64,000 nucleotides of DNA, taken from assembly GCF_026213295.1 (NCBI RefSeq), contig NC_079413.1:15117657-15181656 (forward strand), given 5' to 3'. The stretch's first letter is position 1; each line of letters opens with the position of its first letter. Below the pieces are notes generated by a model that saw only the letters and a program-made list of their open reading frames with translations, had not been told where the DNA came from and did not search any database. Source of the DNA: Gadus chalcogrammus. Its lineage: Eukaryota > Chordata > Actinopteri > Gadiformes > Gadidae. The position numbers and the translations under genes were made by a program. Shown here in pieces: positions 6,852 to 55,771 of the stretch.

Positions 6852-6859
6852 GAAATGTT
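6852..6859. repeat. Left 8-bp target site duplication of the Merlin-like element
   Basis: GAAATGTT directly precedes the terminal GGTAACACTTTAG and is repeated exactly at 18853-18860 after the opposite terminus. An 8-9 bp duplication is the known signature of Merlin transposons. Confidence 0.9.
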
Positions 6860-8633
6860 GGTAACACTTTAGTTTGATAGTCCACTGTTGACACTCAACA
6901 AGCCATCAGTAGATATTCAGTTGCATGTCAACAGTGAATGAGTTGACATTCAACCGAACTATCTCAACTGATAAGCAACATGTATTCAACTAACTGTAAG
7001 TTAACTATAAGTTGCACTATTAGTAGATGGTTAGTTGATATTTGACAGTGCTTGTTCAACAGATAAGAAACATGGATTCAACTAACTAAGCAACATGTAT
7101 TCAACTAACTGTAAGTTAACTATAACTTGCACTATTAGTAGATGGTTAGTTGATATTTGACAGAGCTTGTTCAACAGATAAGAAACATGGATTCAACTAA
7201 CTGTCTGTTAACTATAAGTTGCGCTATTAGTAGATGTTGTTTTGTACACGTAGCATGCATTCAACTAACTGTCAGTTAACTATTAGTTGCATTATTAGTA
7301 GATGGTTAGTTGATAATCAACAAAGCTTTCAACAGATAAGAAACAAGCATTCAACTAACTAATTTAACTACACGTTGCACTATTAGCTGGTGTTTAGTTG
7401 ATATTCTACAGAGCTTGTCAACAAATATGTAACATGCATTCAACTAAGTGTTAGTTAACTATAGTATATTTTTATTTCGTTCATTTATTTTTACAAAAAC
7501 AGTCTGCAACAGACATTGTGCTTTTTACTACATGTTCTTTACAAATATTCAACTATCAGTTGAGTGTCAACTTCTAGTAAGTTGACTATCAACTGCTGTT
7601 ATTAACCAATTCTCAACTTACGTTTCATATGGATCAACTTACCCTCCACTCACAAGGAACACATCTAATGAATAAACAACCCTCTGTTGATCATATATGT
7701 TCATTGTAAAATAAAGATGAGAATATTTTATCAATCAATAGGCACCCTGTGTAGGTGACAACCTGTTGATTGTCATATGACTGTCGACAAACTATCAGTC
7801 AATATTCAACTAAGCATTAGTAGAGAGGTCTTAGGACTGTCAAATTAAAGTGAAAACAGTTTAGTGTCTACACACTATTAACAGAGCAAAACAGAGAAAA
7901 TAGTTGACTATCAGTTGATTCTCAACAAACTATCAGTCGATATTCAATTAAGCATTAGTAGACAGGTCTTCGGACTGTCAAATTAAAGTGAAAACAGTTT
8001 AGTGTGTGCAAACTATTAACAGAGCAAAACAGAGAAAATTGTTGATTCTCAACTAACTATCAGTCGATATTCAATTAAGCATTAGTAGACAGGTCTTAGG
8101 ACTGTCAAATTAAAGTGAAAACAGTTTAGTGTCTGCACACTATTAACAGAGCAAAACAGAGAAAATAGTTGACTATCAGTTGATTCTCAACAAACTATCA
8201 GTCGATATTCAATTAAGCATTAGTAGACAGGTCTTAGGACTGTCAAATTAAAGTGAAAACAGTTTGGTGTGTGCAAACTATTAACAGAGCAAAACAGAGA
8301 AAATAGTTGATTCTCAACAAACTATCAGTCGATATTCAACCAAGTATTAGTAGAGAGGTCTTAGGACTGTCAAATTAAAGTGAAAACAGATGAGAACAGT
8401 AGACAAACTAAAAACTAGTAACTGTACAAAATAGAGACAAGTGTGAAATAAAGTGAAATAAACAACTTTATTATTAAAAAAAAACTAATCTTTAACAGAA
8501 CTCTTTTTACAAAGGAAGAGTTTGAAGAGTCAAAAGAACCAAGAATACTATAAACCGTTTGAACATATACAACAAAAACTTTTCTTTTAAAAATAAATTA
8601 AAACACTCCCCTTTCTCCTCTGTCCATTTCAGC
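6860..8633 (+). repeat. Left terminal inverted repeat (about 1.77 kb)
   Basis: Inverted complement of 17345-18852. The outer half has about five degenerate copies of an AACTAACTGTAAGTTAACTA / GGTTAGTTGATA motif. The inner half has five copies, about 130-145 bp apart, of a unit containing GGTCTTAGGACTGTCAAATT and AGAGCAAAACAGAGAAAAT. The innermost 170 bp act as the 3' UTR side of the transposase gene. Confidence 0.85.
8467..8472 (-). terminator. Poly(A) signal of the transposase gene
   Basis: AATAAA on the minus strand, about 190 bp downstream of the transposase stop codon and inside the left inverted repeat. The mirror copy lies at 17550-17555. Confidence 0.55.
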
Positions 8634-8662
8634 TTATTTTGATCAATGCCAAGCTCTGCTTC

Positions 8663-11600
8663 CTATTTCTGATAGGAGCGCCTTATGTCCTTGACAAGCC
8701 TGCCAAGGACACCTTCTGAATTTTTCCTCGCTAACCAGTAGGTCCACTCAATAAAGCAGAGCTGCTCTTTCAAGGCCTTCTCCGACCGATTCCCCCGCAT
8801 TCTCCAAATTTCCTTTTTATAGGTCTGCCACGCTCTCTCGAGGTTCTGAGTATGGAGTCCTGTCTGAGGGTCAACATAATGTTGGCTGTGGTTCACCCTG
8901 ACATGCCTGTAGCCCTCTGTGGCGAGACCGGCATACGCTCTCCACTCATCACTTACGACGAGACTGTGATGCTTAACATGCTTTTTGATGATAGGAACAA
9001 GGGTCTCCTTATTTCGTCTCTGCACGAGGCGAAGAATAGGACGCCTGTCAGACCGTTTGATTTGGAGCATTCCAAAGACCCATGTCCTTTTTCTCCTCCA
9101 GCTGTTCCCGAAGCGCCCTCTTCCGTACTGCCAAAACACAATATTAATGTTATAAAATAAATAATACCCTACAGTCAAACATATACATAATCAATGTTAT
9201 ATTACTGCCAGTGAGAAGTAGGATGATTATGCTAATTTCCAAATGATATAAATAATGGAGTAATATAAAAACTTTTGTTTTTTTAAGTTTGGAATGCATA
9301 TTATTATTAGTATGTGTTGTTACATGTCAACAGTGAATGAGTTGATAACTCTTTCATGCATTGAACTACCTGACAGTTACCTAGAAGTTGCATGATTACC
9401 TTGATATGATATAGCATACAGTCTAATTTTATTTCTTATTTCAACTTGCTCTACCTGAAAAAACTATAATGTAGCCCATGTTTTCTTAAGGCATAGATTG
9501 GTTATAGCAAATAGTATCAAAACACTCCGAGGCGTCTTCCATACTTCTTGAAAGATGCATACAGCACACAAGTCATGACCTTGTAACTTTTCATCGGCCC
9601 CTCCAATATGCCGATTTGCATGTGAATACAGTACATAGTGCTATTTATTTGATTGCATTAACATCATCAAGTACTTAAATTAATATTTTTTTTCAAGTGT
9701 GGTTAAAACCATTCCAGGGAAAATATTTTGAATGGTGAGGCTTTAAATACAAATTCCGAAAATTCAGAAATTATGTTCATAGAGCCAAACTTCCACAATA
9801 ATTAATCTAAAAGTAAAGCTTAAAGATTTCTCTTGAAGACAATTGATATTTCAACATTAAGTTTATAATAAAATCCAAAACAAGAACTGAGGAAAGATCA
9901 GGTTTTTGATGAGTTGAAATTGAATGACCCCATATTTAGTGAATTATATTACAAATATACCTTGCGCTTATGGCAGAACTTGCTCTCGTCAATGTGGACG
10001 ATAGCGTTGACTCCACCGATTTTCTGGCCTTTTTCTTTCCTGTGCCTTTTAAGGCTTTTTAGGCACATTCTTCGCAGTTTTTTAGACATCATTGAGAGTG
10101 TAGCAGTGCTTTTAGTGATGCCATCCTGAAGCATGTCTACCTGCCGTAGCTGCAAACCCTGTGCAAATCTACAAAGAAAACAAAGATTTAATCAGAACTG
10201 TTTACATAAACAAAGAAAATATGTGCTTGTTTGATCAATCCGTAAGTCTACTTTTGTCACAAAGCTTTTTCTACTGAAAAACTACTGTTGCAACTTGCAA
10301 CTATAGTTTCAGCTTAAATTGTACAAACATTTCACACTCTGAACCTAGAGCTGTAATCTGTGAAATACTGGAGTTGGAGAAAACCTAAAATGATTACCTG
10401 TGAATGTACTTCATCCATGTGAAGAGACTACAGTGTGAGTTTGAGAAAAGAGACTTGGTCCTTACACTTCTCCTCAAACGTCCACATCTTTTACGACGGC
10501 ACTCCCTGAAAATTACAAACAAATTGGAAATTTAAATGATGTCTATAAGTTTGACATATACATACATACATTGTCTACAAACTGCTCAGCCTAAAACATT
10601 GTGGCGATGTAAATAACCCTTATTGACGATCATGTCATAAATTATAACTTGATCAAATAGATATCTTAAAACTTAAACTAGCTTGATACTACATATCAAG
10701 CTACATGCTTCCGGCTATTCGCTGTGTACAAGCTTATTCATCATTTCAATCATGCATTACAAAGGGGTAGGATTAAGTGTATAGTTCTTCCTACTTGTTT
10801 CAGGCATATCAATTAAATATATCTAATTTATTTTATTTTTTTATTTTTGTGAATTGATTTGAACATAATTTTTGTCTATTGTATTTTCATGCTTTTCATT
10901 TCATTTTGTTTTTTTGATATGTCTGAAATAATAACATTGAATCAATCAAACCATTCATTAGCATTTGATTCATTACTTACATATATTACATTCAAATGGG
11001 AATTGTTAATAAGGGCTACCATACAAATATTTCAATATTAGCATTTGTTTTTTTGGGGCGGTGTCACGTTAAAATTGTACCGGGGGCGAAAATTGTACCG
11101 GCCTACGTCTTCACAACAGATTACGTAAGGGGTTGTTCGTTGCCAGGCAGGTTTCAATTGCGCTCATGTTGCCGAAGACGAAATAATATAATACAGATAA
11201 CGGATCGCGCTAGATAACACTTGTTTTTACTTTATATTTGTATTGCATTTAATTGTTTAATCGAATTTAGCTAGTAAACTGAGTGTTTAATGTGTTCATA
11301 GTCTAGCTAGCTTGTGTTAATTTAATTTCCTTAATTAAATTTAGAGAATAGATTATAGGTAATAGATAGCTAATAGATAGATAGATAGGTAGATAGGTGA
11401 GCAGGCATTTACTAACTGTTTTTTATTATTATTATTCACGTTATCCCCATAACATTTAGCTATTACTGTGTAGGGAAATAGATAAATACAATGCAATACA
11501 ATACAAATATAAAGTTAGGAACGCTAATAAATGTAATTTGTAAAATAAGTGTTATCTGTCTTGTCGCTCTCAATGAACGAGTTCGCGAATGTTCAAGAAC

Positions 11601-12304
11601 CTTCCACGTCATTCGACGCGATCCCCCGTTGCGATCGTCTGTTGCCAGGCAGGTTTGGAATGGATTACTATGGATGACGTAGGCCGGTACAATTTTCGCC
11701 CCCGGTACAATTTTTAACGTGACAGCCCCAAATCCTATGGCCCCAAAATCAGTGTATCTTCCGTTCAATCCATATCCGTTTGGAAATCAAAACACGAAAA
11801 GCGAAAAGTGACTTTTTAAAAAATCATCCTCGTTGGGATAGCTTGACCAGAAATTCATCACATGTATTGCTCTTTTAAAACATGTATACCGGTGTAATAG
11901 TCTCTGTATGAGCTTTTACCAATAATAAAGTCGAGAGAACAGTTTGGGAAAGCTGAGCGGTAGGGCAACCGCCTCCCCTCTGCCGCGTTCCCTCTTTGAA
12001 ATGAAGGGAGGCGACCAGCTGCTGCGCGGTGGAGGCGCGGAAACTCGCAATAATATCATATTCCAACCTAAATGGTTGTGCCGATTGCCAAACAACTGAT
12101 GGGCCCATGAGTTAACAATAATTAATAACATTAGCACACTTACCAGATGTGGAGATCTGTGGACTGTGTGTAGTAGACCATCTTCATTTTGTGTCTGCAG
12201 TTTTTGCATTTCACTTTTCTTTGCAGCAACCTTTCAAAAGGACAGCGGGGGAATGAAGGAGAAAGCTCCGATATGCCTACTGCTGGTAAGTTGGGTTGAC
12301 ACAT
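8663..12304 (-). CDS. Merlin/IS1016-type DD36E transposase, spliced
   Basis: Four coding exons on the minus strand join in frame: 12304-12144, 10505-10398, 10168-9961 and 9127-8663. All introns are GT-AG, giving 942 nt and 313 aa. Residues 33-61 form a zinc ribbon (CKNC and CRRKRC; the WECRRK junction is restored by splicing). A helix-rich segment follows (about 65-135), then the catalytic core with D150 in HIDESKF, D219 in VSDEWRAY and E256 in QNLERAW. The 36 residues between the second D and E give DD36E. The VNHS..YVDP.TG.HTQN block is typical of the ISXO2/IS1595-like DDE family to which Merlin belongs. No stop or frameshift is visible, so it may be active. The start ATG at 12304 is a choice; an in-frame ATG at 12352 would lengthen it. 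Expected role: nuclear binding and cut-and-paste transfer of the long-TIR element. Confidence 0.85.
11052..11732. mobile_element. Nonautonomous MITE in transposase intron 1
   Basis: A 0.68-kb element with inverted ends of about 55 bp: TTTGGGGCGGTGTCACGTTA... on the left and the complement ...TAACGTGACAGCCCCAAA on the right. Both continue into GTACCGGGGGCGAAAATTGT and CGGCCTACGTC. It encodes nothing. A GTTGCCAGGCAGGTTT block is repeated directly near each end (11,130 and 11,640). The family was not recognised and no clear target duplication was seen. Confidence 0.7.
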
Positions 12305-15300
12305 TTGTAAAGTTATTGTAATACTCAAACTGTTTCTGGCCGGGCTCGGCAAGAGCTAGTAACGTTAGCTTTGCTTAGCTGGGGGGTGACGACGTTAATA
12401 GCTGCTTGGCGACATCGTAGACTTTTCTTCCCATCTCGATATTCACATACTTTGGCGCATGTAGCAGTGTTGCGGGTGGTCATTGCCAACTGAATAATAG
12501 AGGATTGTCTGGATATCAACCAAAGGCTCATAATTAGCTTTAGACCATGAACCATAAAATTGTGGGACTTTTTATTAACGCCACCACAAGCGTTTAATTG
12601 CGAGACGGTGGCTAGACTACTTTTCAAAGTAATAATTCAGCTGCAATTAAGCAACTGTATTTCAACCAAAAACAGAAGCCCTTACCAGTGATATTTATCT
12701 ACATAATTTTTGCAGGTTTTTGTCTCGTGTGACCTGTGCGCCTATGAGCGCCTATCAAGGCGCATTTTAGTGTCATCAGATGGTATTACTCATGTATTTA
12801 GTGGTGTGACTTAAGGTGTATTCACACATGGAAAGTCCGTTGGTTCACTTGCTTTGGTCCAGACCAAATAGAATTTAGATTTTTTTTGTTTGGTGTGGTC
12901 CACTTTCATACTGCCCCTTTTGCAAGTGAACCAGCATTACGAAGCAAAACCACACGTGATCTGAGGTCATTCATTCATTGGACAGACATTCTGGGGTGGA
13001 GAGAAGCAGGAAGATCGAAATAAAAACTGCGAAATATATCATTGATATAATATGGGGTTAAAAATAATAAAAATGCCTACATCTAGCCTATAAATAAAGA
13101 AGAAAAACATCTAATTATTGTTGTTTCATATGTTTATAATATGTAGCCCTATGTCAATGCCACGTTATGTGGTTTGTAGCCTACGATGTGAAACATAATG
13201 TATAGCCTACTGTATTTTTGCTGCTGGACGCGCGGCTCGCGAGAAGAATAGGCTCAAGCTGAAACACAGCTGATTTAGCTGTGTATCAGCTGGGTGTCAG
13301 TTCGGCGCAGTTCAGCTCCAAACTGACACTGGGACAGTATTGACGGTCCCGTTGGGAAGAAAAATAAAAACACACACACTTCATGCAAAGCGCAGCGTGA
13401 ACCTGTTGGCACTGTAGGCTACGGGAGACGCTCCTCTCCATCTGATCGCTGAACATATCAGCATGTGTATTATGGCAAAAATCATAATCATAATCACGAT
13501 TATTTTGATTGACAGTGTAATCACGATTATTAAAGACAATATCCACAGTATTCAGGTGCCTAAAACAGGCGTACTCTGGAACCACGCTATGTAAAACACA
13601 TCCAGAGAGAGGAGGATTGTGCAGAAAAACACACCTTAACACATATTATGGTGGGGAAGAATTGATCCTTGTGTGGGATTATTTTTGTTGGACTCCGAGT
13701 TGCCTGACAGTGGCAGGTGCAGATTCATGTGCTTCATGAGGAGATTTGAATTTCTTCTATGCTTGTCAGTGTGTCCAGTCGAGACTTCAGTAGTATGTTT
13801 TATAGATCAACATTTTACTTTTCCTACAAGTTTGCCTCATATACTCTACTAACATGAATTTGTTATCTATCATGTCATATGTTGCAGTTGTTAATATGGA
13901 AAATATTATTTTTCAACTAGGCAAAGTCCAATGGAAGAAGCGGTCAGAAGAGCTGCAGACCCGGATCGAGTTGCTGGAGGAGGAGAATGCTTTACTGAAG
14001 CAGCAGCTTGAGCAAAGGCCTTCAGCAGAGCAAGGTTTGTAAAGCTAGAGTATAGTATTACCTGAGGACTTCAATACAGTTTTTTATGATCGCTTAACCA
14101 CAGTGGGCACAACTGGAGCGACACGTGCAAAACTCAGCATGCAGTTCCTGTGGACCAACCACTAGCTAATTTTTCATTGCTTAAACACAATTTTCAGAAC
14201 TCTACACACTTATCTCATGGCTTATATCACAACCTGCACAACACTGTGGATTTTCAGCACTTTGATCAAATGCTAACACACTGCTGTCACAACTGTAAAC
14301 CACACATTCAAAACAGAATGGACTTCATCCTGGTGCATTTTAAACACTGTGGATTAGGGCTTTGACTTCGAACTTCGTAATTCGAATATACCGGTAATTC
14401 GAATATCAAAAAATAAATCAACGAATATTAGGCAGCCCTTAATATTCGAACCTGTTATCGGCAGGCCAAGAGGAGAGACGTCGGAGAACCCGACGCAGTC
14501 TATTCATAATATTGTAATGACCACGGAAGAGGCAGTGAATGAAGTATTGATTAGACAGCGATTTATCAGAAACCCAATAAACCGTTGGAACACACAAGAC
14601 CGGTAACCATAGCAACGCCGGTAAACTAACCTTGCAAAACCCAATCCAGGGCTGAATCCGAATACTCATACTTATAGTATGCATTTTGTAGTACGCCACA
14701 AATATAGCGCGTCCGAATGCTCAGTACGCATTGTGTAGTACAGAAAACGTTAAAGAATGCGTACTACCCATTGGTACTACCGCCACAGTATACAACGGTA
14801 GGTCACTACGCTATCCCACAATGCAACCGGAGTCTGGTAACGAACGAAGAAGTGATGGCTGACCCGACACTACCAACAGCGGCTTAGAAAGACGTCGTAG
14901 AAAGCGGCGAAAAAAGAGTCATTAAAAAGAGTAAAAAAGTAAAGTAAGTCATCAAGTAAAAAGAGACATTTTTAATTTTATAGCAACGATGACAAGACGG
15001 AAAACAGGTAACTTATCAAGGTAGTTTTGCCGGCATCTGAGGGGAGATACGTCATCTCCAAACATCCGGTGGAGTTTCGGCGGTGTTCGGAAGCTTTCAG
15101 AAGCGTTCTACACATAGCTGTAGACCGTACTACACTTGACAGTGTAGTATGGTCTTCAGCTATGCGTAGAACGCTTCTGTTCAGTAGACACTGAACAGAA
15201 ATAGTATGTACTAAGTATTTGGATTCAGCCCAGGTCTTACTGAAGGCATTAAATGGTCAAAATACTATTAATAAATATTCGAATATATTCAAATATTAAT

Positions 15301-17343
15301 ATTAATAAACAAACGAACTTCGAATATGACTTTTGGGCAAAAGTCAAAGCCCTACTGTGGATTGCTATTTCAACTGAAACACAAGGTGTCTTGTTTTAGA
15401 CTTGTGAGTGAACATATACAGTATATAGGGAAAGTGCAAAAATACTTTCTTTTGGAAATGGACCAAGGAAGAAAGGTTGGTGGAGGGAGAAGAGTGGCAG
15501 TGAGAGTGTGGATGTGTTCTGAGTGACATTATGTGTCATCGCGATGAGGCTGGTTCATAGTGTTTACTGCTCTGAGCCTATTTTGCAGGTGATGTGAACT
15601 GTTCAGCTCCAGTGACTGTTGGTAGTGCAGACTGTAGTTAGATTTTTGCACATTGAGCTCCAGTTGTGCCCATAACTGGAGCTCAATGTGGGTTTTTTTC
15701 AGGTTAGCGATCGAAAAAAAACTGTAATGTATGTGGCTTCACTACAACAATCACAATATTGGAGTTCACCCATTGTAGGAGGGTCACTCTACGTCACAAC
15801 ATCTGATAGACATCAGCATATCAGGTGGGCACTATTCACACCTGCGCCTTACAGGTGAACGCTGCAAAGCCAGCCAGCTGCGCTCTTTTAAAAATTACAC
15901 AACTGTTACGGTAACACCCTTAACTCTACCGGCAGTGGTTCGGAATGAGGAGGACACCGATTCTTGACAGGCTTACTTTATTCCCGTTGCACTCACTTTA
16001 CAGTTGGTTGCATTAGCTTATGCTGCTTTCTCTCGCTTGCATTTACACACCCAGACACATGCTACCGCTCGCTCTCCTCGCTCGTCCATTCACTCACTGA
16101 AATCCCTCAAACAACAACACACTGCCATTCTCGCTCACTCACTCAGGCTACTCTGTCTCATAACACTACTATCAAGATACATCATCTACTTCCGAATTGC
16201 CCTCCAACAATTTAAAATCAGAAAAATCCTCCACCTCAAACAACACATCTGTGTGACATGAGCTCACATCGTGTAGCGATAGCGCCCTTAGACTCTCTGT
16301 CACTCTGCTTTTCAAGGAAGTTATATCATTTAGATCTTCCTGAGTGACAGCTAGATTAACCCAGTGTCCTTTACAGCCACCTCCTTCCTAACTGAGCCGT
16401 CAGAACCTTGGTCAGAACGCATTTTTCAAAATTGTGCAGTGTGACAAGTTATGCTGAGACTGGGGGTAAAGTTACCCTTAAAAGTTGTTTTAAGTGCTTT
16501 TTTCTGCTTTTCGTCATTTCCTAGGTGACACAGTGGACAACACTGACCCCGAACCAGAGTCAAACACTGACGCAAGTAGCAGCTCCAGCACAGACTCAGA
16601 TTCCAGCAGCAGCAGCTCTTCCTCCTCTGATGGCCGAAAAAAAAAGAGGAAGCACAAGAAAAAAGCAAAAAAAAGGAGCAAAAAGTCGAAGAAGTCGAAG
16701 AAGTCAAAGGCCAAAGGATATCGTGGTAAAGTAAATGATATAATTGTCCTGTATTTCTTTAGGTTCAGAAATTACATATACAGTGCTGCTTGAAAGTTTG
16801 TGAACCCCTTGACCATTTTGGAATTGTATTGTGTTTAACCATTATTAACTCATTTTTTATCAATACCAGTACTTTTTTTTTAAATAACAGAATTGTTTAT
16901 CAATTCAACATTTTTCTTTTCCGGAAATCAATTGTTAAAACAGATCAAACAAATGATTTGCCAACTGTTGAGCAGTATCGAGCAGGTAAACACAATCAGG
17001 TGGGCCAAATTGAGTGATGAAATGGATTTTTTTTCCATTTTCAGTGACAACCATATCGGATGTGGTGAAGCGGTACCGCCAGGTCCTTCGAATAATGGAA
17101 AGGGGACACACAATGTCAAGGGCATTCGCAAAGGCAGGCGTCTCAAGAAATGCTGTGAAGGACACCGCCGCAATCGCGGAACTGTACATAGCTGACAGAA
17201 GTGTCCTGGAGGAGATAAAGGGCAAAAAGACGCTCCTCCATTTATCAAAGGTCTGCGACTCAAAAATAGTTGGAGAGCTTTCTTTGAAGATTGATGAACT
17301 TAAAAAGAAAAAGAAACTGATACCATTCACCAAAAGAGGCTGA
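12273..17343 (+). CDS. CCDC106-like coiled-coil nuclear protein carried by the transposon
   Basis: Coding exons at 12273-12285, 13921-14034, 16525-16725 and 17045-17343 join through GT-AG introns with matching phases to 627 nt, 208 aa. Residues about 7-40 form a leucine-rich coiled coil (RIELLEEENALLKQQLEQ). Residues about 50-73 are a Ser/Asp acidic tract. Residues about 75-108 are a very basic Lys/Arg stretch that should direct the protein to the nucleus. Residues 110-208 form a compact domain with VVKRYRQVLRIMERGHTMSR and VSRNAVKDTAAIAEL motifs, recalling the C-terminal part of CCDC106. Mammalian CCDC106 is a nuclear p53-binding protein. The first exon lies antisense inside the first exon of the transposase, and the stop codon abuts the right inverted repeat, which supplies the 3' UTR. 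Its role in transposition is unknown. The tiny first exon (MPTAG) is the weakest part of the model. Confidence 0.75.
12815..13635. mobile_element. TTAA-flanked MITE in the CCDC106-like gene, intron 1
   Basis: TTAA at 12811-12814 and 13636-13639 flank ends GGTGTATTCACAC and the inverted GAAAAACACACC. It encodes nothing recognisable. It resembles dispersed piggyBac/Kolobok-type MITEs, inferred from the TTAA only. Confidence 0.55.
14355..15354. mobile_element. hAT-type MITE with perfect 8-bp duplication
   Basis: Ends TAGGGCTTTGACTT and AAGTCAAAGCCCTA are flanked by CTGTGGAT at 14347-14354 and 15355-15362. Subterminal AATTCGAATAT repeats are present. A second, 5'-truncated copy of the same family lies at about 49,690-50,076. 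It contains the smaller element 14650-15230. Confidence 0.8.
14650..15230. mobile_element. Inner element with 3-bp duplication (Harbinger-like)
   Basis: Ends GGCTGAATCCGAATACT and AGTATTTGGATTCAGCC, flanked by CAG on both sides. The sister hAT copy near 49,953 has a single CAG at the homologous point (TCCAGGTCTTACTGAAGG), which serves as a natural empty site. A 3-bp duplication fits PIF/Harbinger-like elements; the family is inferred. Confidence 0.7.
15727..16520. other. Intron 2 sequence, no gene recognised
   Basis: Remaining intronic sequence of the CCDC106-like gene. Around 15,960-16,150 it is rich in CACTCAC/CTCGCTC-type pyrimidine runs. Short open frames at 15964-16261 have no motif and are not called. 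Confidence 0.4.
16781..17000 (+). repeat. Tc1/mariner-type element end in intron 3
   Basis: CAGTGCTGCTTGAAAGTTTG preceded by TA is a well-known terminus of a fish Tc1/mariner family. The opposite end is absent; the right limit is approximate. Confidence 0.5.
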
Positions 17344-17344
17344 G

Positions 17345-18852
17345 GCTGAAATGGACAGAGGAGAAAGGGGAAAGTGTTTATTTATTTAAAAAAAAAAATA
17401 ATGTTTTTGTTTTATTTGTTCAAACGGTTTATAGTATTCTTGTTTCTTTTGACTCTTAGTTTATTTAAAAAAAAAAAAATGTTTTTGTTTTATTTGTTCA
17501 AACGGTATATAGTATTCTTGTTTCTTTTGACTCTTAGTTTTTTTTAAATAATAAAGTTGCTTTCTTCTCTGATATGCTGCTTATGTGTTGTTTATTTCAC
17601 TTTGCGGTCATCCAGTTTTACTGATCAGTTGAGCAAAACTTGTCTCTATTTTGTACTGTTACTAGTTTGTAGACCGCTACTGTTCTCAACTGTTTTCACT
17701 TTAATTTGACAGTCCTAAGACCTCTACTAATGCTTAGTTGAACATCGACTGATAGTTTGTTGAGAATCAACTATTTTCTCTGTTTTGCTCTGTTAATAGT
17801 GTGTAGACACTAAACTGTTTTCACTTTAATTTGACAGTCCTAAGACCTCTCTACTAATGCTTAGTTGAACATCGACTGATAGTTTGTTGAGAATGAACTA
17901 TTTTCTCTGTTTTGCTCTGTTAATAGTGTGTAGACACTAAACTGTTTTCACTTTAATTTGACAGTCCTAAGACCTCTCTACTAATGCTTAGTTGAATATT
18001 GACTGATAGTTTGTCGACAGTCATATGACAATCAACAGGTTGTCACCTACACAGGGTGCCTATTGATTGATAAAATATTCTCATCTTTATTTTACAATGA
18101 ACATATCTGATCAACAGAGGGTTGAATGTTCATTCATTAGATGTGTTCCTTGTGAGTGGAGGGTAAGTTGATCCATATGAAACGTAAGTTGAGAATTGGT
18201 TAATAACAGCAGTTGATAGTCAACTTACTAGAAGTTGACACTCAACTGATAGTTGAATATTTGTAAAGAACATGTAGTAAAAAGCACAATGTCTGTTGCA
18301 GACTGTTTTTGTAAAAACAAATGAACGAAATAAAAATATACTATAGTCAACTAACACTTAGTTGAATGCATGTTACATATTTGTTGACAAGCTCTGTAGA
18401 GTATCAACTAACTCACTGTTGAATATCAACTAAACGCCAGCTAATAATGCAACGTGTAGTTAACTTAGTTAGTTGAATGCTTGTTTCTTATCTGTTGAAA
18501 GCTTTGTTGATTATCAACTAACCATCTACTAATAATGCAACTAATAGTTAACTGACAGTTAGTTGAATGCATGCTACGTGTACAAAACAACATCTACTAA
18601 TAGCGCAACTTATAGTTAACAGACAGTTAGTTGAATCCATGTTTCTTATCTGTTGAACAAGCTCTGTCAAATATCAACTAACCATCTACTAATAGTGCAA
18701 CTTATAGTTAACTTACAGTTAGTTGAATACATGTTGCTTATCAGTTGAGATAGTTCGGTTGAATGTCAACTCATTCACTGTTGACATGCAACTGCATATC
18801 TACTGATGGCTTGTTGAGTGTCAACAGTGGACTATCAAACTAAAGTGTTACC
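17345..18852 (-). repeat. Right terminal inverted repeat (about 1.51 kb)
   Basis: Inverted complement of 6860-8633. It is shorter because it has three, not five, copies of the CAGTCCTAAGACCTCT unit. It begins 1-2 bp after the stop codon of the CCDC106-like gene. A local duplication of an 85-bp A/T-rich piece (ATGTTTTTGTTTTATTTGTT twice, near 17,401 and 17,480) is present only on this side. Confidence 0.85.
17550..17555 (+). terminator. Poly(A) signal of the CCDC106-like gene
   Basis: AATAAA about 207 bp after the stop codon, inside the right inverted repeat, mirror image of the signal serving the transposase. Confidence 0.55.
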
Positions 18853-18860
18853 GAAATGTT
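18853..18860. repeat. Right 8-bp target site duplication of the Merlin-like element
   Basis: GAAATGTT, identical to 6852-6859, directly after the terminal GTGTTACC. Confidence 0.9.
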
Positions 18861-21758: not shown

Positions 21759-24386
21759 TCAAGCTAGTATTTTCCTCTGGGTCATGTTCTGAATGAGTCT
21801 ATCTACAGGTTTCACCAGCCTACCCACCCTTGTTCTAATACGGGAGACAACACTGATCACAGTGCTTGGGGGGTCATTGCTACAGCCTGTTTCATCGACC
21901 ACACTTGACACACTCATTGACCTCCGGCTAACACTTTCCCGCAGGTCAATGTCTCCAAGCTCTTCATCATCGTCAAGACATGTTTGGACAACAGAAGCAC
22001 TATCCAGAACCCAACTGGATGTCCTGTCTTCTGTGACATCACCTGTCGCCACATCTGACACGCGGCTTTGTGTCTCGTCATGAATCAACTCAGATGACTC
22101 AGTGAACGATGCGTCAACATCCTCTTCATCTTCCACCTCAAGTGGAAGAAAGTTTGCGCACAGGAGGTGATTGCGATGCACAACCTTTTCACGGCCACTG
22201 CTTGTATTCCTTATCCGATAGGTATGACACCTAGGATCTCTTGAGACCACCATGTACGGGACAGACTCCCATTTGTCAGACAATTTCTTGCGTCCCCTTT
22301 CACATTTGTTTGACAAGAGTACTTGGTCTCCCTCAGCGATGTCATGACCTTTGGTCCTCTTGTTGTACAGTTCAGTTTGGTGTTGCTGACTGGTGACAGC
22401 ATTGGCCTGAGCAGATGATAATGCCTCTTTTAACTCCTCCCTCAGTTTAAGGACATATTTATCATAGTCAGCGATGTCACAGTCCCTCTCCACATTGTGG
22501 AACATCACGTCAACTGGGAGTCTGGGGATCCTCCCATACATTAGATAGAACGGGGCGTAGCCTGTTGACTCGTGGGCAGTGCAGTTGTAGGCGAAAGTCA
22601 ACGTCTGCAACATCTGGGGCCATTTTTGCTTGGCTCTTGGAGGGAGAGCTCTGATCATGCTTCCCAATGTCCGGTTGAAGCGTTCAACCACACCGTTTCC
22701 CATGGGATGATAAGCCGTTGTCCTCGACTTCTTTACACCAGAAATCAGCAGTAACTCTCGGATCAACTGGCTCTCGAAGTTGGCTCCTTGGTCGGAGTGA
22801 ATTCTCTCTGGGAAGCCGTAGACACAGAAGTATCGATCCCAGAGCTGACGGGCAACCTGCTTTGCTGACTGATCGTGACATGGAAAAGCGTGAGCCATTT
22901 TTGTGAAATGGTCAGTGATGACCAGGACATCGACAGTTTTTCCATTTGGGATTTCGGCTGACCAAAAGTCAATGCAGACCATCTCGAGAGGGCTTGTTGT
23001 TTTGATGCTCTCGAGAGGCGCTCTCCCTTCAGGTTCGGGTGTCTTGCTTACCACACAGCGCTTGCATGACTTGACATATTCACGGACATCTCGTTCCATG
23101 TCAATCCAGAAGAACCTCTGCCTCGCAAGATATAGAGTCCTATGCTGTCCCTGGTGCCCAGCCTCATCATGGACACCCTGCAGAGCCTGCTTGGTCAGTG
23201 ATGCAGCCACGACATACTGGTAACGCCTTCTGCCAGTTAGTGAGTCTTTGATCACTCTATACAGGATACCATCCAACATCTTGAGCTTTTCCCACTGCTT
23301 TAGAGTTTTCTGGACTTTGAGAGGCTCTTTGACTCTTTCTCGCCTCGATGGTCTACTACCACGTGACACGTAGTGTATGACTCTTGCCAGTATAGTGTCT
23401 TCCTGTTGCTTGTCTTGGAGCTCTTTAAGGGAGAAGACAGGTAAGGCACTTTCACCTGGTGGAACAAGCTTATGCACATTGTTTGCCAGCCAGGAGATCA
23501 CTCGTCCTTTGGGTCCCTCAACCCACTCAACTTGACCATCCAGGACGGCTGTCACTTCTTCACTGCTCATTGAACTGCATGCCACTTCAGATCCACCCAT
23601 TTTGACCTCTTGGCAGTTGGTGCTCAGCCGAAACACATCCTGTATCCTGTCATCTCGGATCTGCTGCGCTTCTTCCAGCAGAGCTCCATACGGCTCTGCT
23701 ATAAGTCTCTCGCTGACCCGTGGCTTGACAAAGGGTTGTCTACTCAAGGCATCCGCGACGATGTTCTTGCTGCCTGGGATATATTGGATACTGAAGTTGT
23801 ATGGAGCCAGCTTCGACACCCACCGCTGTTCACAAGCATCCAACTTTGGCTTTGTGAGGATGTAGGTTAACGGGTTATTGTCGGTCCAGACGGTGAAGGA
23901 ATGTCCCTTTAACCAATGGCTGAATTTATCACACACAGACCATTTGAGAGCGAGGAACTCCAACCGATGAGCTGGATACTTCATTTGAGGGCCAGTCAGA
24001 GCCTTGCTTGCGAAGGCTATGGGACGTGCCTTGCTCCCTCCTTCGGGGACTTGAGAGAGTACAGCTCCCAATCCATCCAATGAAGCGTCGGTTGAGAGAA
24101 TGAAAGGGCGACCAAAGTCTGGATGAGCCAACACAACTGAGTTCAGTAGAGCAGCCTTTAGTTGGTTGAATGAGTTGCTCTGTTCTTGGGTCCAATCACC
24201 TGGGCTGAGCCTTTTGAAGTGAGAAGCCCGTTTTGCGTTGGCCTTTCCAGTGGCAGCGGCGGTCAGGGAGAACAGGGGCTTTGCCATGCTGGAACAGTTT
24301 TGTATGAATCTCTGGTAATACATTATCATACCGAGGAAAGACTTGATCCTTTTTGCTGACGGTGTGACTCCATCCTCCATCATCAA
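21759..24386 (-). pseudogene. Gypsy pol: RT connection, RNase H and integrase part
   Basis: An 875-codon frame. It opens in the RT thumb (KRIKSFLGMIMYYQRFIQNC). It continues through RNase H (STDASLDGLGAVLSQ near residue 99, then LEFLALKWSV and TDNNPLTYIL). Next is the integrase HHCC zinc finger (HDEAGHQGQHRTLYLARQRF...CKRC, about residues 410-445). The integrase core follows (CIDFWSAEIP, HSDQGANFES, GVVERFNRTLG: D, D, E), then a C-terminal tail. It overlaps the preceding frame by 4 bp. Comparison with usual gypsy pol shows about 30 residues of RT missing at the junction, so this is a deletion plus frameshift rather than programmed frameshifting. Confidence 0.85.
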
Positions 24387-25966
24387 ATCCGCTTCACTCT
24401 GACGCTTCGCCTAAAGAAATGGCATTTCTTCGGTGCCAACTTAAGCCCATGTCCTCTCAACCGCTTAAAGACCATTTTGAGTCTGTTCAGGGCTTCCTCT
24501 TCATTTGGGGCAAAGACCAAAACATCGTCAAGGTAGCACAGCAGGGTCAAGAAGTTTTGGTCTCCAAAGACACTCATCATGAGGCGCATGAAACTCGCCG
24601 GGCTGTTGCACAGGCCTTGGGGTAGTTGGTTGAACTCATGGAGGCCTACTGGTGTAGTGAAGGCAGTAAACTTCTTGTCCGGTTCATGCATGGGGACATT
24701 GTAGAACCCCGATGTCAAGTCCATGGCGCTGAATATGGTATTTCCCCCTAACGCAGCCAAACAGTCAGCTTGGTGGGGTACTGGGTGGGCATCCTTCACT
24801 GTGCGAGCATTGAGCCACCGGTAGTCCACACAGATGCGCAGCTCTCCATTTTTTTTCCAAACCAGTACTAATGGCGAAGCCCACTCACTTGATGACTTGC
24901 GTATGATGTTCTTCTCTTCCATCTCAGAGAGGACTTCTCTTAGTTTCTGGTATTGGCTTGGTGGGACACGGCGGTATGCTAGACGGAAGGGGCGCTCATC
25001 AGTCAGATGAATCCGGTGGACAAAGTCTTTGGCCAGGCCACAGTCCAGCTTGTCCTTGGAGAACACATCTCCATGCCGCTGTATGAGTTCCACAAGCTGG
25101 TTCTTCCAATACAGGGACACTTCACAAGAGTTGATGTCTATATCGTTCAATCCAAGACCAGCAAGCTTGTCCTGAAGGGTGGTAGCTACAGAGGTATCAG
25201 GGACATGGTCAGTGCTTACTCTTACGCTTTGGCCTTGTGCTTTTAGCTCTGTGTCGGTGACATGGTCCACTCCGAGCTCGAAGTCTTCAAGTGCCACACA
25301 CGGTGAAACCTCAGCTAACTTCATGTTCCTCCTCAGTGTTACAGGCTTGTCACTTGGGTTCACGACCTTCACAGGAACCCACCTGTCTACACTCATTGAT
25401 AACACAGTTCTCCCTACCATGATGCTTTTCCGGTTTGAGTGGGACTTTGAAGGTTCCACCAGTATGGTACTTCCCTCTGAGATAGGAGCCTTTCCAGGAA
25501 GCTTTCCCCACACTATGTGCTCCTGTTTGGGCATCAGCGTCACAGCATTGGTAAGTTTCACAGTCCCAATGACGTCTGGGATAATGTCACCTTTCCATCT
25601 TGTTATGCCCGAGAGCATGCTCAAGAACTGTTCGATGCCTGGTTCACCAGTGGAGTCAGCTTTACTCAGCACGCGCCAATAGCTGGGATTTTGCTTGAGT
25701 TGGCGTAGCAGGTGTTTCAGCACATTGGTGCCTACTATCATTTGGTCACGCTGACCTGGCACGACTAATGTGGGCACGATTGCTTCTTGTCCATAGATTT
25801 TCAACTTTAACTGATGAATGCACTTGGGCCGCACATGCACACCACCACAACCCACCAGAAAGATGTCTTCGCTGGACTGAGCATCCTCTGAGAGCAACCC
25901 TGCCTTGTGGAGCTCCTCTTCTGCTTCTTCACTCATTGTACAAGCCATTGAGCCTGTGTCTAGCAT
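24383..25966 (-). pseudogene. Gypsy pol: protease and reverse transcriptase part
   Basis: A 527-codon frame beginning inside the aspartic protease (MLDTGSMACTMSEEA, catalytic DTG at residues 3-5; flap-like IVPTLVVPGQRDQMIVGTNV near 90). A long linker leads into reverse transcriptase: FRLAYRRVPPSQYQKLREVL, RICVDYRWLN, MDLTSGFYNVPM and LLCYLDDVLVFA (YLDD catalytic box). The frame stops shortly after KKCHFFRRSV, where the RT thumb should continue, because of the junction lesion at about 24,384. The protease lacks its normal N-terminus and follows the gag remnant in a different phase. Confidence 0.85.
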
Positions 25967-26225
25967 TGAGTTTGGGGGTACTTGTTTGGTTGGCTAATAT
26001 GCGACTCACAACAGTGTTACCAATGTGGGTTCCCAGCTCCCCTAAGAGGTCACGCAGTTGTGCCAGAGTGTCATTATCAGCAGTGGCGGGAGTGGAAAAC
26101 ATCTGCCTTGCTACAGGCGTACCATTATCTATACTCTGAGGGCTGCTAATGCCTGGCGTCCTAGTTTGCTCTGCATTCCCTGGTTGCAAACACCCTCTAC
26201 CCATCCCAAATCGTGTAAAATCCAT
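25929..26225 (-). pseudogene. Gypsy gag remnant
   Basis: A 98-codon frame starting MDFTRFGMGRG at the expected gag position, about 245 bp after the primer binding site. It contains a TLAQLRDLLGELGTHI-like helix. Capsid, major homology region and CCHC zinc knuckles are all absent; the frame runs directly into the protease sequence in another phase. A deletion of most of gag is the simplest reading. Confidence 0.6.
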
Positions 26226-49690: not shown

Positions 49691-50076
49691 TATATTTTGA
49701 ATATCAAAAAATAAATCAAAATTCAAACGAATATTAGGCAGCCCTTAAGATTCGAACCTGTTATGGCAGGCCAAGAGGGAGAGACGTCGGAGAACCCGAC
49801 GCAGTCTATTCAAAATATTGTAATGACCACGGAAGAGGCAGTGAATTAAGTATTGATTAGACAGCGATTTATTAGATACCTAATAAACCGTCGGAACACG
49901 CAGGACCGGTAACCATAGCAACGCCGGTAAACAAACCCCGCGAAGCTCGATCCAGGTCTTACTGAAGGAATTTAATGGTCAAAGTATTATGAATAGATAT
50001 TTGAATATATTCGAATATTAATATTAATAAACAAACAAACTTCGAATATGATTTTTGGGCAAAAGTCAAAGCCCTA
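49691..50076. repeat. Truncated sister copy of the hAT MITE at 14355-15354
   Basis: Shares the interior and right end (AAAAGTCAAAGCCCTA) with that element. The left end is lost where the L2-like (ATT)n tail begins. It lacks the inner insertion, so position 49953-49955 (CAG) marks the empty site. Confidence 0.75.
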
Positions 50077-50295
50077 CACACACAATTTTATTAATTTACT
50101 GTTTGGAATACTTACATTAAAATGATCCAGCATGAACTGTGATCCATAATACCGCGATATGATATGGCTGTCGGTGTCGTCCGTGGGCCAGTACCTCACA
50201 TGGATATCCATCCGTTTGCTTTTAGTGGTTTTGTTAACTGTCATCGAACATGTGAGGACGTACTGTTTATCGCTTATGCTGCGTGACAGCTCGCT

Positions 50296-51581: not shown

Positions 51582-53153
51582 TCATATTTTCTTTATCAAA
51601 TGTGTTTCTTTTAGATATCCAAATACGTGCCTATAGCATCTATCTCCTGACATCTTCCTTAATATATTCACCAACTCATATCTTTCTTTAATTTCTGCCA
51701 ACTTATCCTGCATTTGTCGTCTCTCTACTTCATACTTCCTACAGCTGTTCATTACATGATCTACAGTTTCCTGCTCCTCACAATGATCACACCTCCCTGT
51801 GTCATGTTTTCCAACAATAAATAACGATGCATTTAGCCCTGTATGTCCAAATCTCAGCCTTGATATTACGGTTTCTTCCCTTCTGCTCCTTCCTGTTCCC
51901 CTGGCCTCTCCTACTTTCCTCTGAATTTTATAAAACCACCTTCCCTTCCTCTCCTCCTCCCACCTCTTCTGCCATTTCTCCTTCATTTTCCTTTTAATTA
52001 TGTTTTTACCCTCCATCTTGCTGATATTTATACGTAATTCAATTTCCTCACATTTTGTTGCCTCTTTTGCCACCTTATCTACCACCTCATTCCCTCTCAC
52101 TCCAATATGTGCCGGTACCCACACAAACACCACTGTTATACCCATCCTCTCTATTCTATATAAAATCTGTTTTATCTCTATTAAAATGTCCGGCCTGCTA
52201 TCCGACTTACTGCTCTGTAGACTGGTTAAAACTGAACTTGAGTCCGAACATATTAAAACACTTACTGGTCTAGTTTCCTCTACCCAATGTATTGCCAATA
52301 AAATTGCAATCATTTCTGCTGTATACACCGATACTTCATCACTGACCCTTTTACCCACCCGCACCCGAAACTCCGGGACCCAAAATGCCACTCCTACTTT
52401 ACTTTCTGCACTCTTTGATCCATCTGTATATATCTTTACATACCCATAGAACTCATCAATATACTCCTGCACACTTATGGCATTACAAACAAACTCTCTA
52501 TCTTTATTTTTCCTTTCTAAAATTGTCAGATCTACTGTAGCATCTGGAAGAATCCAGGGTGCGAGTGCTGGAATTGGTACTGTTGGACTAAACTGTATCT
52601 TTTCAATTCCAATTTCTTTTGCCCTCTGCACTGCTGTCCAACCAAAATTCCTTACTTCCTTTTTCTCTTTTTCCCAACTAGGTTTTAACGTGTCTTGCGC
52701 TGGATGGTCCTTGCTATGTCCTTGTAAATGCACCCAGTATGTCAGTGACAATTGCAGCCTTCTCAGATCAATAGGCATGACCCCCATTTCTACCTGCAGC
52801 GCAGCTATAGGTGTTGTTTTAAAACCGCCTGTACATAAACGCAATGCCTGATTCTGTATCCCTTCCAGTTTCTTCATATGTGTCTCTGCTGCTGCCCCAT
52901 ATACCACACTCCCATAATCTATAAACGCTCTAATTAAACCATCATATATACCCTTTAGTGCCACTCTATCCGCCCCCCACTCTTTTCCAACTAGACACCT
53001 CATTATATTTATAACCTTTTTACATTTGTCCACAACCTTCTGAATGTGTATATTCCATGTTAACCTTTCATCAAACCACATTCCTAATAACTTAAAGTGT
53101 TTTACTCTTTTTAGGTCTTGTTTATAAAGTTTTACTTTAATCTCATCTCCCAC
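51582..53153 (-). pseudogene. I-like LINE ORF2: RT C-terminus and RNase H
   Basis: 523 codons. After the end of the RT thumb (HFKLLGMWFDERLTW) comes an ALRLCTGGF..TPIAALQ segment typical of I/R1-type LINEs. The RNase H domain follows: IYTDGSKSAESKVGVAFW (D), YTAEMIAILLAIHW (E), CSDSSSVLTSL (D) and VPAHIGVRGNEVVDKVAKEA. A Cys/His motif, CDHCEEQETVDHVMNSC, lies near the carboxy end. The RNase H active residues are intact. It is separated from the upstream frame by a one-base-type shift at about 53,143-53,153, where the two frames overlap. Confidence 0.85.
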
Positions 53154-55398
53154 TTTTCCTGGTGAAAAACATTAGGTTTGTCTTCCCTACCGAAAACTTA
53201 AAACCCCATTTATAAGACCATTCCTCCACTCTATTGATTGCCTCCTGTAATTTTTTAACAATGAATTTCATATTTTTCCCCCTCTTCCATATTGCCCCAT
53301 CATCTGCAAATAATGAAAAACCCATACCACTCTCTATTTCTTCAAAAACGTCATTTATCATAATGGAAAATAATAGTGGACTAATTATGCTCCCCTGTGG
53401 TGTTCCATTCTCTATTTTAAATTTCCCTGACAAGCTTTTTCCTACTCTCACCTGTATTGATCTCTCAGTTAAAAAATCTTCAATCCATCTGTATATTCTC
53501 CCTTTAACTCCCAACTTCCTTAATCTAACTAATAATCCTTCTACCCACATCATGTCATATGCCTTCTCAATATCAAAAAACACAGCTACAACACTTTCCT
53601 TATTTATCTGTGCCTTTCTGATCTCATGTTCTAGACATATGGTCGGATCCATAGTGTTCCTCCCCTTTCTGAACCCACTCTGATACTTTGACATAAATCC
53701 TTTACTCTCCATATAGTATGTTAATCTTTCATTTATCATTTTCTCCATTATTTTACATATATTCGATGTTAAGGCAATTGGCCTATAGTTCTCTGGGTTA
53801 GAACTATCCTTCCCTGGTTTAGGTATTGGTACAATAACTGCCTCCTTCCAACTTTCTGGTAATTTACCTTCTTTCCAAACTCTATTGTATAACTCCAATA
53901 ATATTCCTTTTGCTGCCTCACTTAAATTACTTATCATTATATAACAAACCTGATCCTTTCCTGGTGCGGTCATCTTTGTTTTCCTCAATGCACGATTCAT
54001 TTCTGTCATTGTGAAAGTCTTATTAAGCAAATCTTCATTTTCTTCCTCATCTTGCATCAACACTTCATACTCCACTAAAGTAGCCTCCCTCCCTCTTTTT
54101 CCCTCTTCACTAATATTTTCTGAACTATGAACTTTCACAAAAGCCTTTGCTAACATCTCCCCCTTTTCTTCTTCCTTCATTGCTATTGTTTCCCCTACCT
54201 TCAAAACTGGATATCCATATTCTCTCTTAACTCCATTCATCTTTTTAATCATGCCCCAAATCTGTCCCAATTCCGTTTCCCGTCCCACCGAATTGCAAAA
54301 ATTCCTCCAACAAGTTTTCCTTGCATTTTTAATAGTTCTCCTTACATTTGCTTGACTTCTTTTATATTCAATAAGGTTCTCAAACCTATGGTTTCCCTTT
54401 AGCCTTCTAAATGCTTTATTTCTACTCTTGATTGCTTTACTACATTCTTTGTTCCACCATGGTACCATCCTCTTTTTCCCTTTTCCTTCTTTCCTCTTAA
54501 TTGTTCTCTCAACAGCCTCTAATATAACTCTGCACACATTCGTATTTAGCTGGTCAACATCTTCTCCTATCTCAATTTCTAACATTTCTTTCTCACTTAT
54601 TTCCTTAAATAGTTCCCACTCTGCATTGTGAAAGTCCCAATTCATCACTCTTTCTAGATTGCACTCTTCAATTGTCAATTCTACTCCAATGATTATAGGA
54701 TAGTGATCACTTCCAACAGTCGTTTCTTTCCTTACTTCCCATGAACATACTCCTGCCAGTGTATCTGTTACTAGTGTAAGATCTAACACTGACTCCACTC
54801 CATTGCTTACATTTATTCTTGTCCCCTCCCCATTATTTAAACAAACTATTCCCTTGTTGTCCATTAATTCCTCTATCACCTTCCCATTATCATCATCTTT
54901 CCTTCCTCCCCATAACGTGCTGTGTGCGTTAAAATCTCCACACCATATAGCATTTTGCCTTTGTCCTACCCTCTCCAATTCCTCCAACTTAATTTTCTTA
55001 CATGGATTGTACAAATTGATTGTAGTCATTTTCCTTTTATTAACCCAGATTTCAATAACAATTATCTCTAGACTAGTTTCATAATTCATTGGTACTCTTT
55101 CATACAATATTCCTTCCTTAATAAACGTTGCACATCCCCCTGCCTGCCGCTCATTCCTATCCAGTCTAACTGAGTTGTATCCTACAATTTTAAAATCCAA
55201 GTGTGATTTCATCCATGTTTCTTGTATACAAATGATTGCTGGTTTAACGTCTAAGTTCTCTATATATCTCTTAAATTCTTGCCCATTCGATATCAGGCTT
55301 CTGGCATTCCACTGCAGAATAAGGAACACCATAATTATATTACTTAGTAACCCCTTCATTTCTATTGATCTCATCCTGTACCATCTCTCCCGTTTCAT
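53143..55398 (-). pseudogene. I-like LINE ORF2: endonuclease and reverse transcriptase
   Basis: 751 codons. The AP-type endonuclease begins at LQWNARSL with CIQETWMKS (E), IWCGDFNAHSTLWGG (D,N) and GSDHYPI (D,H). The reverse transcriptase has KTMTAPGKDQV, VPIPKPGKDSSNPENYRPIA, FFDIEKAYDMMW, GTPQGSIISPLLF and the catalytic SLFADDGAIW. It breaks off at FTRKSGR, where the protein continues in the next frame. All catalytic residues of both domains are visible; the frameshift is the only clear lesion in ORF2. The start ATG at 55398 lies within the end of ORF1, as is common in LINEs. Confidence 0.85.
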
Positions 55399-55771
55399 CC
55401 TTTATGTCTAAGTATTCCCTTGTTGCCTCCACAACAATCTTTATCCGATCTGACCTTGTATTTTTTTCCTGCATAGCTAGATTTATGACCTTCGCCATGA
55501 AGAATACAAAGTTAGCCTTATCCACAATCAAAGTGTCCTTATTCACATCACATTGCAAACCTACTGGCTCTAAAGCTTGCTGTGAATACTGAGAGGGTTC
55601 AACAACACCCACACTTGCACCACCTTGTGGTCCTTTTAATTGTTTGATTGCCTCTGCATATGTTACTTTATTCTGGACTTTATATTTCTGAATTTCTTTT
55701 GCTTTAATCTGTGCTTCGCATCCTTGATATGCCGCACTGTGATCCCCTCCACAATTGCAGCATTTAGCTTT
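55340..55771 (-). pseudogene. I-like LINE ORF1 C-terminal end
   Basis: From the truncation point the minus strand reads a CCHC zinc knuckle (CCNCGGDHSAAYQGC) followed by a basic, Lys/Gln-rich stretch (QIKAKEIQKYKVQNKVTYAE) and an acidic tail ending in a stop at 55340. This is the nucleic-acid-binding end of ORF1. Its start and any other knuckles were lost in the 5' truncation at 55,771. It overlaps the ORF2 start by about 59 bp. Confidence 0.7.

Follow-up and report, generated by a model that had tools for sequence, protein, structure and literature searches.

A two-gene Merlin transposon with a CCDC106-like gene in the pollock Gadus chalcogrammus

The DNA described here, referred to throughout as the window, is a stretch of 64,000 nucleotides from the pollock Gadus chalcogrammus (contig NC_079413.1, positions 15,117,657 to 15,181,656 of the forward strand). 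Within it lies a transposon of the Merlin type that contains two spliced genes arranged head to head: a transposase gene on the reverse strand and, on the forward strand, a gene for a protein of the CCDC106 family (Table 1). The anatomy of this unit is close to certain, and the CCDC106-like gene is, with high confidence, a standard component of the transposon.

Structure of the element and its two genes

The element is flanked by perfect 8-bp target-site duplications. Its outermost 22 bp are identical and inverted (chance matches in 0 of 100 shuffles) and open with 5'-GG, as in Merlin elements, for which duplications of 8-9 bp are typical. Both the duplications and the matching terminal repeats had been noted in a preliminary description made from the letters of the window, and both stand, although the terminal repeats proved to be the tips of inverted arms much longer than stated. 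The arms measure 1774 and 1508 bp, outside the 24-462 bp given for Merlin inverted repeats in a description quoted by PMC8101967. They are 91.6% identical over 1469 ungapped columns, and the non-matching columns in the outer part of the alignment are mostly gaps. Each arm is dense in the hexamer AGTTGA or its complement TCAACT (27 against about 2.8 expected on the left, 25 against about 2.2 on the right). By our reading, all 12 spacings between the outermost 13 AGTTGA sites of the left arm depart by no more than 2 bp from a multiple of 22.5; the difference in conservation between the sites and the remaining arm sequence is not significant. The 3' ends of both genes, with their poly(A) hexamers, fall within the arms.

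The transposase contains a PF12762 domain (ISXO2-like/IS1595, DDE_Tnp_IS1595; E=1.1e-20 in a profile search) with the triad D150, D219 and E256, in which 36 residues separate the last two (DD36E). A methionine at 12304, which would give a transposase of 313 amino acids (aa), was rejected as the start; it falls on the antisense strand of the CCDC106-like gene, and the family starts elsewhere.

The CCDC106-like product of 208 aa matches PF15794 over residues 11-205 (E=3.9e-34), scoring 118.8 bits against a curated cut-off of 30.2, and its last exon by itself scores 73 bits. The C-terminal domain is predicted to have a helix-turn-helix-like fold. Its model has a pLDDT of 89.6, and the top four rows of a VIA-align comparison (2vy1, 3w2a, 3mkw and 3mkz) carry DNA-complex titles. 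A Foldseek search against the PDB and viral models gave no match at E<=0.001, and a sequence search of solved structures gave 12 matches to E=1, all at profile positions 9-130 and none in the C-terminal domain.

Table 1. Features of the transposon in window coordinates
Feature	Position	Strand
Left target-site duplication, GAAATGTT	6852..6859	.
Whole transposon, 11,993 bp, ends GGTAACACTTTAG / CTAAAGTGTTACC	6860..18852	.
Left inverted arm, 27 AGTTGA/TCAACT hexamers, inner limit approximate, contains transposase AATAAA	6860..8633	+
Transposase poly(A) signal hexamer (first base), within left arm	8472	-
Transposase exon 4, second D and E of the DDE triad, stop	8663..9127	-
Transposase exon 3, first D	9961..10168	-
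Transposase exon 2	10398..10505	-
Short inverted-repeat insert in first transposase intron, inside continuous matches to C8, C15b, C15c and C15d	11057..11729	.
Transposase exon 1, remaining part, from RLLQRK onward; 31 N-terminal residues of sister copies absent	12144..12234	-
Junction; five sister copies have 488-566 bp extra (intergenic space and 5' ends of both first exons)	12234..12235	.
CCDC106-like exon 1, remaining part (GQRGNEGESSDMPTA); 29 N-terminal residues of sister copies absent	12240..12285	+
CCDC106-like exon 2, coiled coil; two candidate acceptors put its start at 13888 or 13921	13888..14034	+
Inverted-repeat insert in CCDC106-like intron 2, absent from C15b and C15c; contains further insert 14646-15234	14355..15354	.
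CCDC106-like exon 3, Ser/Asp-rich then Lys-rich	16525..16725	+
CCDC106-like exon 4, predicted helix-turn-helix-like domain, stop	17045..17343	+
Right inverted arm, 25 AGTTGA/TCAACT hexamers, inner limit approximate, starts right after CCDC106-like stop codon	17345..18852	-
CCDC106-like poly(A) signal hexamer (first base), within right arm	17550	+
Right target-site duplication, GAAATGTT	18853..18860	.

Sister copies in the pollock genome

A search of the host genome with the exact 13-base end of the element gave 58 occurrences, against 12 for a control. Similarity to the arms extends from 22 of these ends (over only about 130 bp at C72 and C73) and is absent from 32; four were left unexamined (one on C22, three on C23). 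Seven pairs of ends face each other at distances of 9-17 kb, and six of the seven (the window, C8, C15b, C15c, C15d and C70) enclose both genes head to head, in collinear gene-bearing blocks about 93-99% identical to the window. The printed flanks differ among the pairs except at C15b and C15c, which have the same 12-bp flanks and are counted as one insertion, giving five two-gene sites. Perfect 8-bp duplications are found at four pairs (the window, C8, C15a and C15d), and so at three of the six two-gene copies; that of C15d is a C followed by seven T. The flanks of C15b and C15c are imperfect (ACTTTTTT versus ACTTTGGT), and at C70 no target duplication was seen. Since the copies are nearly identical, we infer that the element has been mobile recently in a Gadus genome.

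Eight further arm-similar ends are unpaired. Transposase exons lie beside the end on C94, and CCDC106-like exons of the window's lineage beside the end on C8 near 25.857 Mb. The ends on C96 and on C2 near 12.51 Mb adjoin CCDC106-like exons of a second lineage, and at C2 neither a transposase exon nor a second end was seen in 13.7 kb. This second lineage makes it possible to compare the last CCDC106-like exon between lineages of the element: window and C2 differ by a dN of 0.145 and a dS of 1.00, and window and C96, over 87 codons, by a dN of 0.173 and a dS of 1.18 (both NG86). The resulting dN/dS between element lineages is about 0.14-0.15, with dS close to saturation. That a gene beside the same arms is under purifying selection argues, on this sequence comparison, that it is useful to the element.

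Each of the six two-gene copies shows damage in at least one of its genes. There is a frameshift in the third CCDC106-like exon of C8 and a stop in the last one of C15d; the match in C15b and C15c retains only the first 16 residues of that last exon, and at C70 the last transposase exon is interrupted by about 4.4 kb. The window copy lacks the starts of both genes. In an alignment of 20 transposase relatives, 12, including pollock P0029, share a similar start ending like KLIKWLQKK, and the N-terminal start of the CCDC106-like relatives ends in TRAK. When the 12 transposase rows were used as tblastn queries, and likewise for the CCDC106-like start, neither conserved N-terminus was found in the window, whereas two control exon pieces were recovered at E of about 1e-10. 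Five sister copies carry both N-termini, contiguous with the remaining first exons and with start codons 315-393 bp apart, and the alignment of the window to all five breaks at the same junction (Table 1). Most simply, a single internal deletion removed the shared space and both gene starts from the window copy, which is therefore probably moved only by other copies. The preliminary description had called the element intact, with an open four-exon DD36E transposase gene and an open four-exon CCDC106-like gene. Its boundaries are intact, and the exons, the catalytic triad and the PF15794 match hold; the gene content is not, both genes being incomplete.

The gene pair in other fish

Protein searches yielded 82 transposase matches and overlapping sets of 28 and 99 CCDC106-like matches; no tetrapod-named rows occur among the 99. 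In Clarias gariepinus (P0031, with 10 member sequences) and Triplophysa rosa (P0089) a single gene model combines the two domains. The Clarias models P0016 and P0031 have a common transposase-to-CCDC106 junction, and as their clusters list contigs whose lengths differ, the two-gene arrangement has probably spread in this fish. In Metynnis hypsauchen the two genes have consecutive locus tags (00092870 and 00092880). The suspicion of the preliminary description that some CCDC106-like genes annotated in fish belong to transposons is supported: examples are the public pollock protein P0001, which is identical to that of the window, and P0018, listed on a contig equal in length to the one with copy C8.

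Trees were built from the window with 38 of the 82 transposase matches and from the window with 39 CCDC106-like rows, hand-picked for species spread; for the CCDC106 tree the tool warned of long branches meeting. In Triplophysa P0089 the CCDC106 type belongs to a separate group (11 rows, support 100/97), and so does the transposase (3 rows, support 99/98). To judge from these sequences, there are thus two Merlin lineages, each with a CCDC106 type of its own. The identities of transposase and CCDC106-like proteins co-vary over six species (Mantel r=0.95, as high in 2 of 720 relabellings), the Hemibagrus and Misgurnus pairs being best hits whose linkage is not demonstrated.

Some observations bear on how general the pairing is. 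The pair of ends at C15a (9.1 kb) encloses neither gene; on visual inspection, a 683-aa open frame within it looks like a non-LTR retrotransposon protein. No gene was seen in the 3.9-4.6 kb inward of four single ends (two on C7, and those on C72 and C73). Against a universal pairing, in Serrasalmus, Hemibagrus and Culter no adjacency of locus tags was seen by eye, leaving Metynnis as the one positive genome of four, with one name per cluster, and most CCDC106-like types are without a demonstrated link to a transposase. The preliminary description had proposed that the same ends without the CCDC106-like gene would tell against its membership. Such ends do occur (C15a in full and the four single ends), but these stretches also lack the transposase, and for that reason we read them as gene-less derivatives. 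Among the seven pairs, fetched on both sides, we saw no case in which a transposase lay between two ends without the CCDC106-like gene. The claim that the gene is a standard component is borne out by six of seven host end pairs and by the fused or consecutive genes of Clarias, Triplophysa and Metynnis.

Some further observations concern individual matches. The two ends on C7 (3398857 and 3414551) point apart with about 15.7 kb between them, and neither has a gene match within about 4.5 kb. Two proteins of about 500 aa, P0153 of Pagrus major and P0154 of Spinachia spinachia (the latter named as a kiaa1958 isoform), terminate with a CCDC106 domain; they share 72.5% identity across 472 residues, and a host gene may have captured the domain. 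The CCDC106-like proteins P0118 of Polypterus (a bichir) and P0121 of Misgurnus (a loach) share 73.6% identity across 239 residues, seemingly high for so variable a family, and horizontal transfer is possible. P0145, whose CCDC106-like sequence is of the Triplophysa type, is listed under a 3,823-bp contig of a Cetobacterium MAG and is probably fish DNA in a bacterial bin. Contaminant fish contigs were found neither among viral contigs nor among genome contigs with P0145, and phage records gave no match.

Role of the CCDC106-like protein and relation to known systems

The overall best explanation, which we consider probable, is a two-gene family of Merlin (IS1595-related) elements with an accessory CCDC106-like factor. 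The two genes diverge from a short shared space, and each has its end in one arm. In the mechanism proposed, the coiled coil of the CCDC106-like protein would pair two molecules, its Lys-rich stretch would direct nuclear entry, and its helix-turn-helix-like C-terminal domain would bind the AGTTGA arrays of both arms; the bound protein would then join the ends for the transposase, control the shared promoter, or both. Judging from the modelled fold, the chances lean slightly toward the protein being an accessory DNA-binding factor. Specific binding to the AGTTGA arrays is a more tentative suggestion, rated somewhat below even.

The protein might instead act on host proteins, as a host-interaction or anti-silencing factor, and not on element DNA. 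The C-terminal domain of human CCDC106 binds p53 residues 15-29 with a Kd of 0.32 uM (PMC10713525), and the acidic Ser/Asp-rich stretch of the CCDC106-like protein would suit such a role. The predicted fold and the dense hexamer arrays of the arms point the other way without being decisive; we regard this account as rather unlikely.

Transposons can capture host genes, and the CCDC106-like gene could be a fish CCDC106 taken up once by Merlin and without function for the element. That CCDC106 is a human gene (PMC10713525) speaks for this. Against it stand the low dN/dS between lineages at a dS of about 1, the joining of two transposase groups to two different CCDC106 types, the co-variation of the two proteins, and the anatomy of the gene, which has four spliced exons, starts at the shared space and finishes inside an arm. 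Capture without function is improbable, and the word passenger, used in the preliminary description, fits the selection and co-variation poorly. The unit does contain nested inserts, but the notion that the CCDC106-like gene and Merlin are separate, overlapping elements can practically be set aside given the same head-to-head order in six of seven pairs with flanks that differ except at C15b and C15c.

The accessory-factor account concerns a single unit that is Merlin, as first described, by its PF12762/DD36E transposase, 5'-GG ends and 8-bp duplications. It differs from other Merlin elements (IS1016/IS1595-related) in its second gene, its arms of 1.5-1.8 kb and its length of about 12 kb. It is still filed as a two-gene variant of Merlin, because the 24-462 bp of the literature is a reported range of repeat lengths and not a catalytic criterion. 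In the sources consulted, Merlin and its bacterial kin, the IS1595 family, are described with a single transposase gene, and one extra open reading frame that overlaps the transposase in a Symbiodinium Merlin family was taken for chance (PMC8101967). A conserved second protein makes the pollock element a testable two-component system.

Other transposons with two proteins are known. In En/Spm (TnpA and TnpD) and Harbinger (a transposase and a Myb-like protein), one of the two is thought to bind repeats near the ends. Their transposases are unrelated to that of the pollock element, for which a repeat-binding role is only proposed; a literature search on two-protein transposons (TnpA/TnpD) found no paper. 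The nearest precedent found is Kolobok Kol0, likewise an animal DDE transposon whose second protein, KolX, has a vertebrate host relative, the C-terminal domain of P2X7 (PMC9587614). Kolobok belongs to another transposase superfamily, and KolX has a zinc-holding cytoplasmic-ballast fold that is not CCDC106-like (PMC9587614). No report of a link between Merlin and CCDC106 appeared among the literature matches listed, with subscription papers, Repbase and Dfam outside the search.

Vertebrate CCDC106 (PF15794) resembles the pollock protein in its coiled coil and compact C-terminal helical domain; the pollock gene, in contrast, sits within terminal inverted repeats and in several copies. Human CCDC106 is described as binding p53 and having a C-terminal domain of helices (PMC10713525), and as acting on p21 via ATF4 (PMC9208459); the available parts of these two papers make no mention of DNA binding by it. 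If the CCDC106 domain does bind DNA, this would offer a structural idea of how human CCDC106 works on chromatin, and a possible origin. More speculatively, and with well under even confidence, CCDC106 proteins may have originated as Merlin accessory factors, several fish Merlin lineages each having its own LEAFY-like helix-turn-helix partner; vertebrate CCDC106, a p53 regulator, and the kiaa1958-like fish isoform would then have been domesticated, as the P2X7 C-terminal domain was from KolX. On a transposase origin of LEAFY, nothing relevant was found in the available portions of the literature matches listed. In any case, the CCDC106-like genes annotated in fish include at least some that belong to transposons.

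The window also contains other mobile sequences. A second copy of the insert in CCDC106-like intron 2 lies at 49693-50077; it is without the inner stretch 14646-15234, which is therefore probably a later insertion. Pieces of an LTR retrotransposon pol region occupy 21762-25993 of the reverse strand; their two open frames encode reverse transcriptase, RNase H and integrase domains. On the same strand, at 51585-55401, lies a non-LTR retrotransposon whose two open frames encode endonuclease, reverse transcriptase and RNase H domains.
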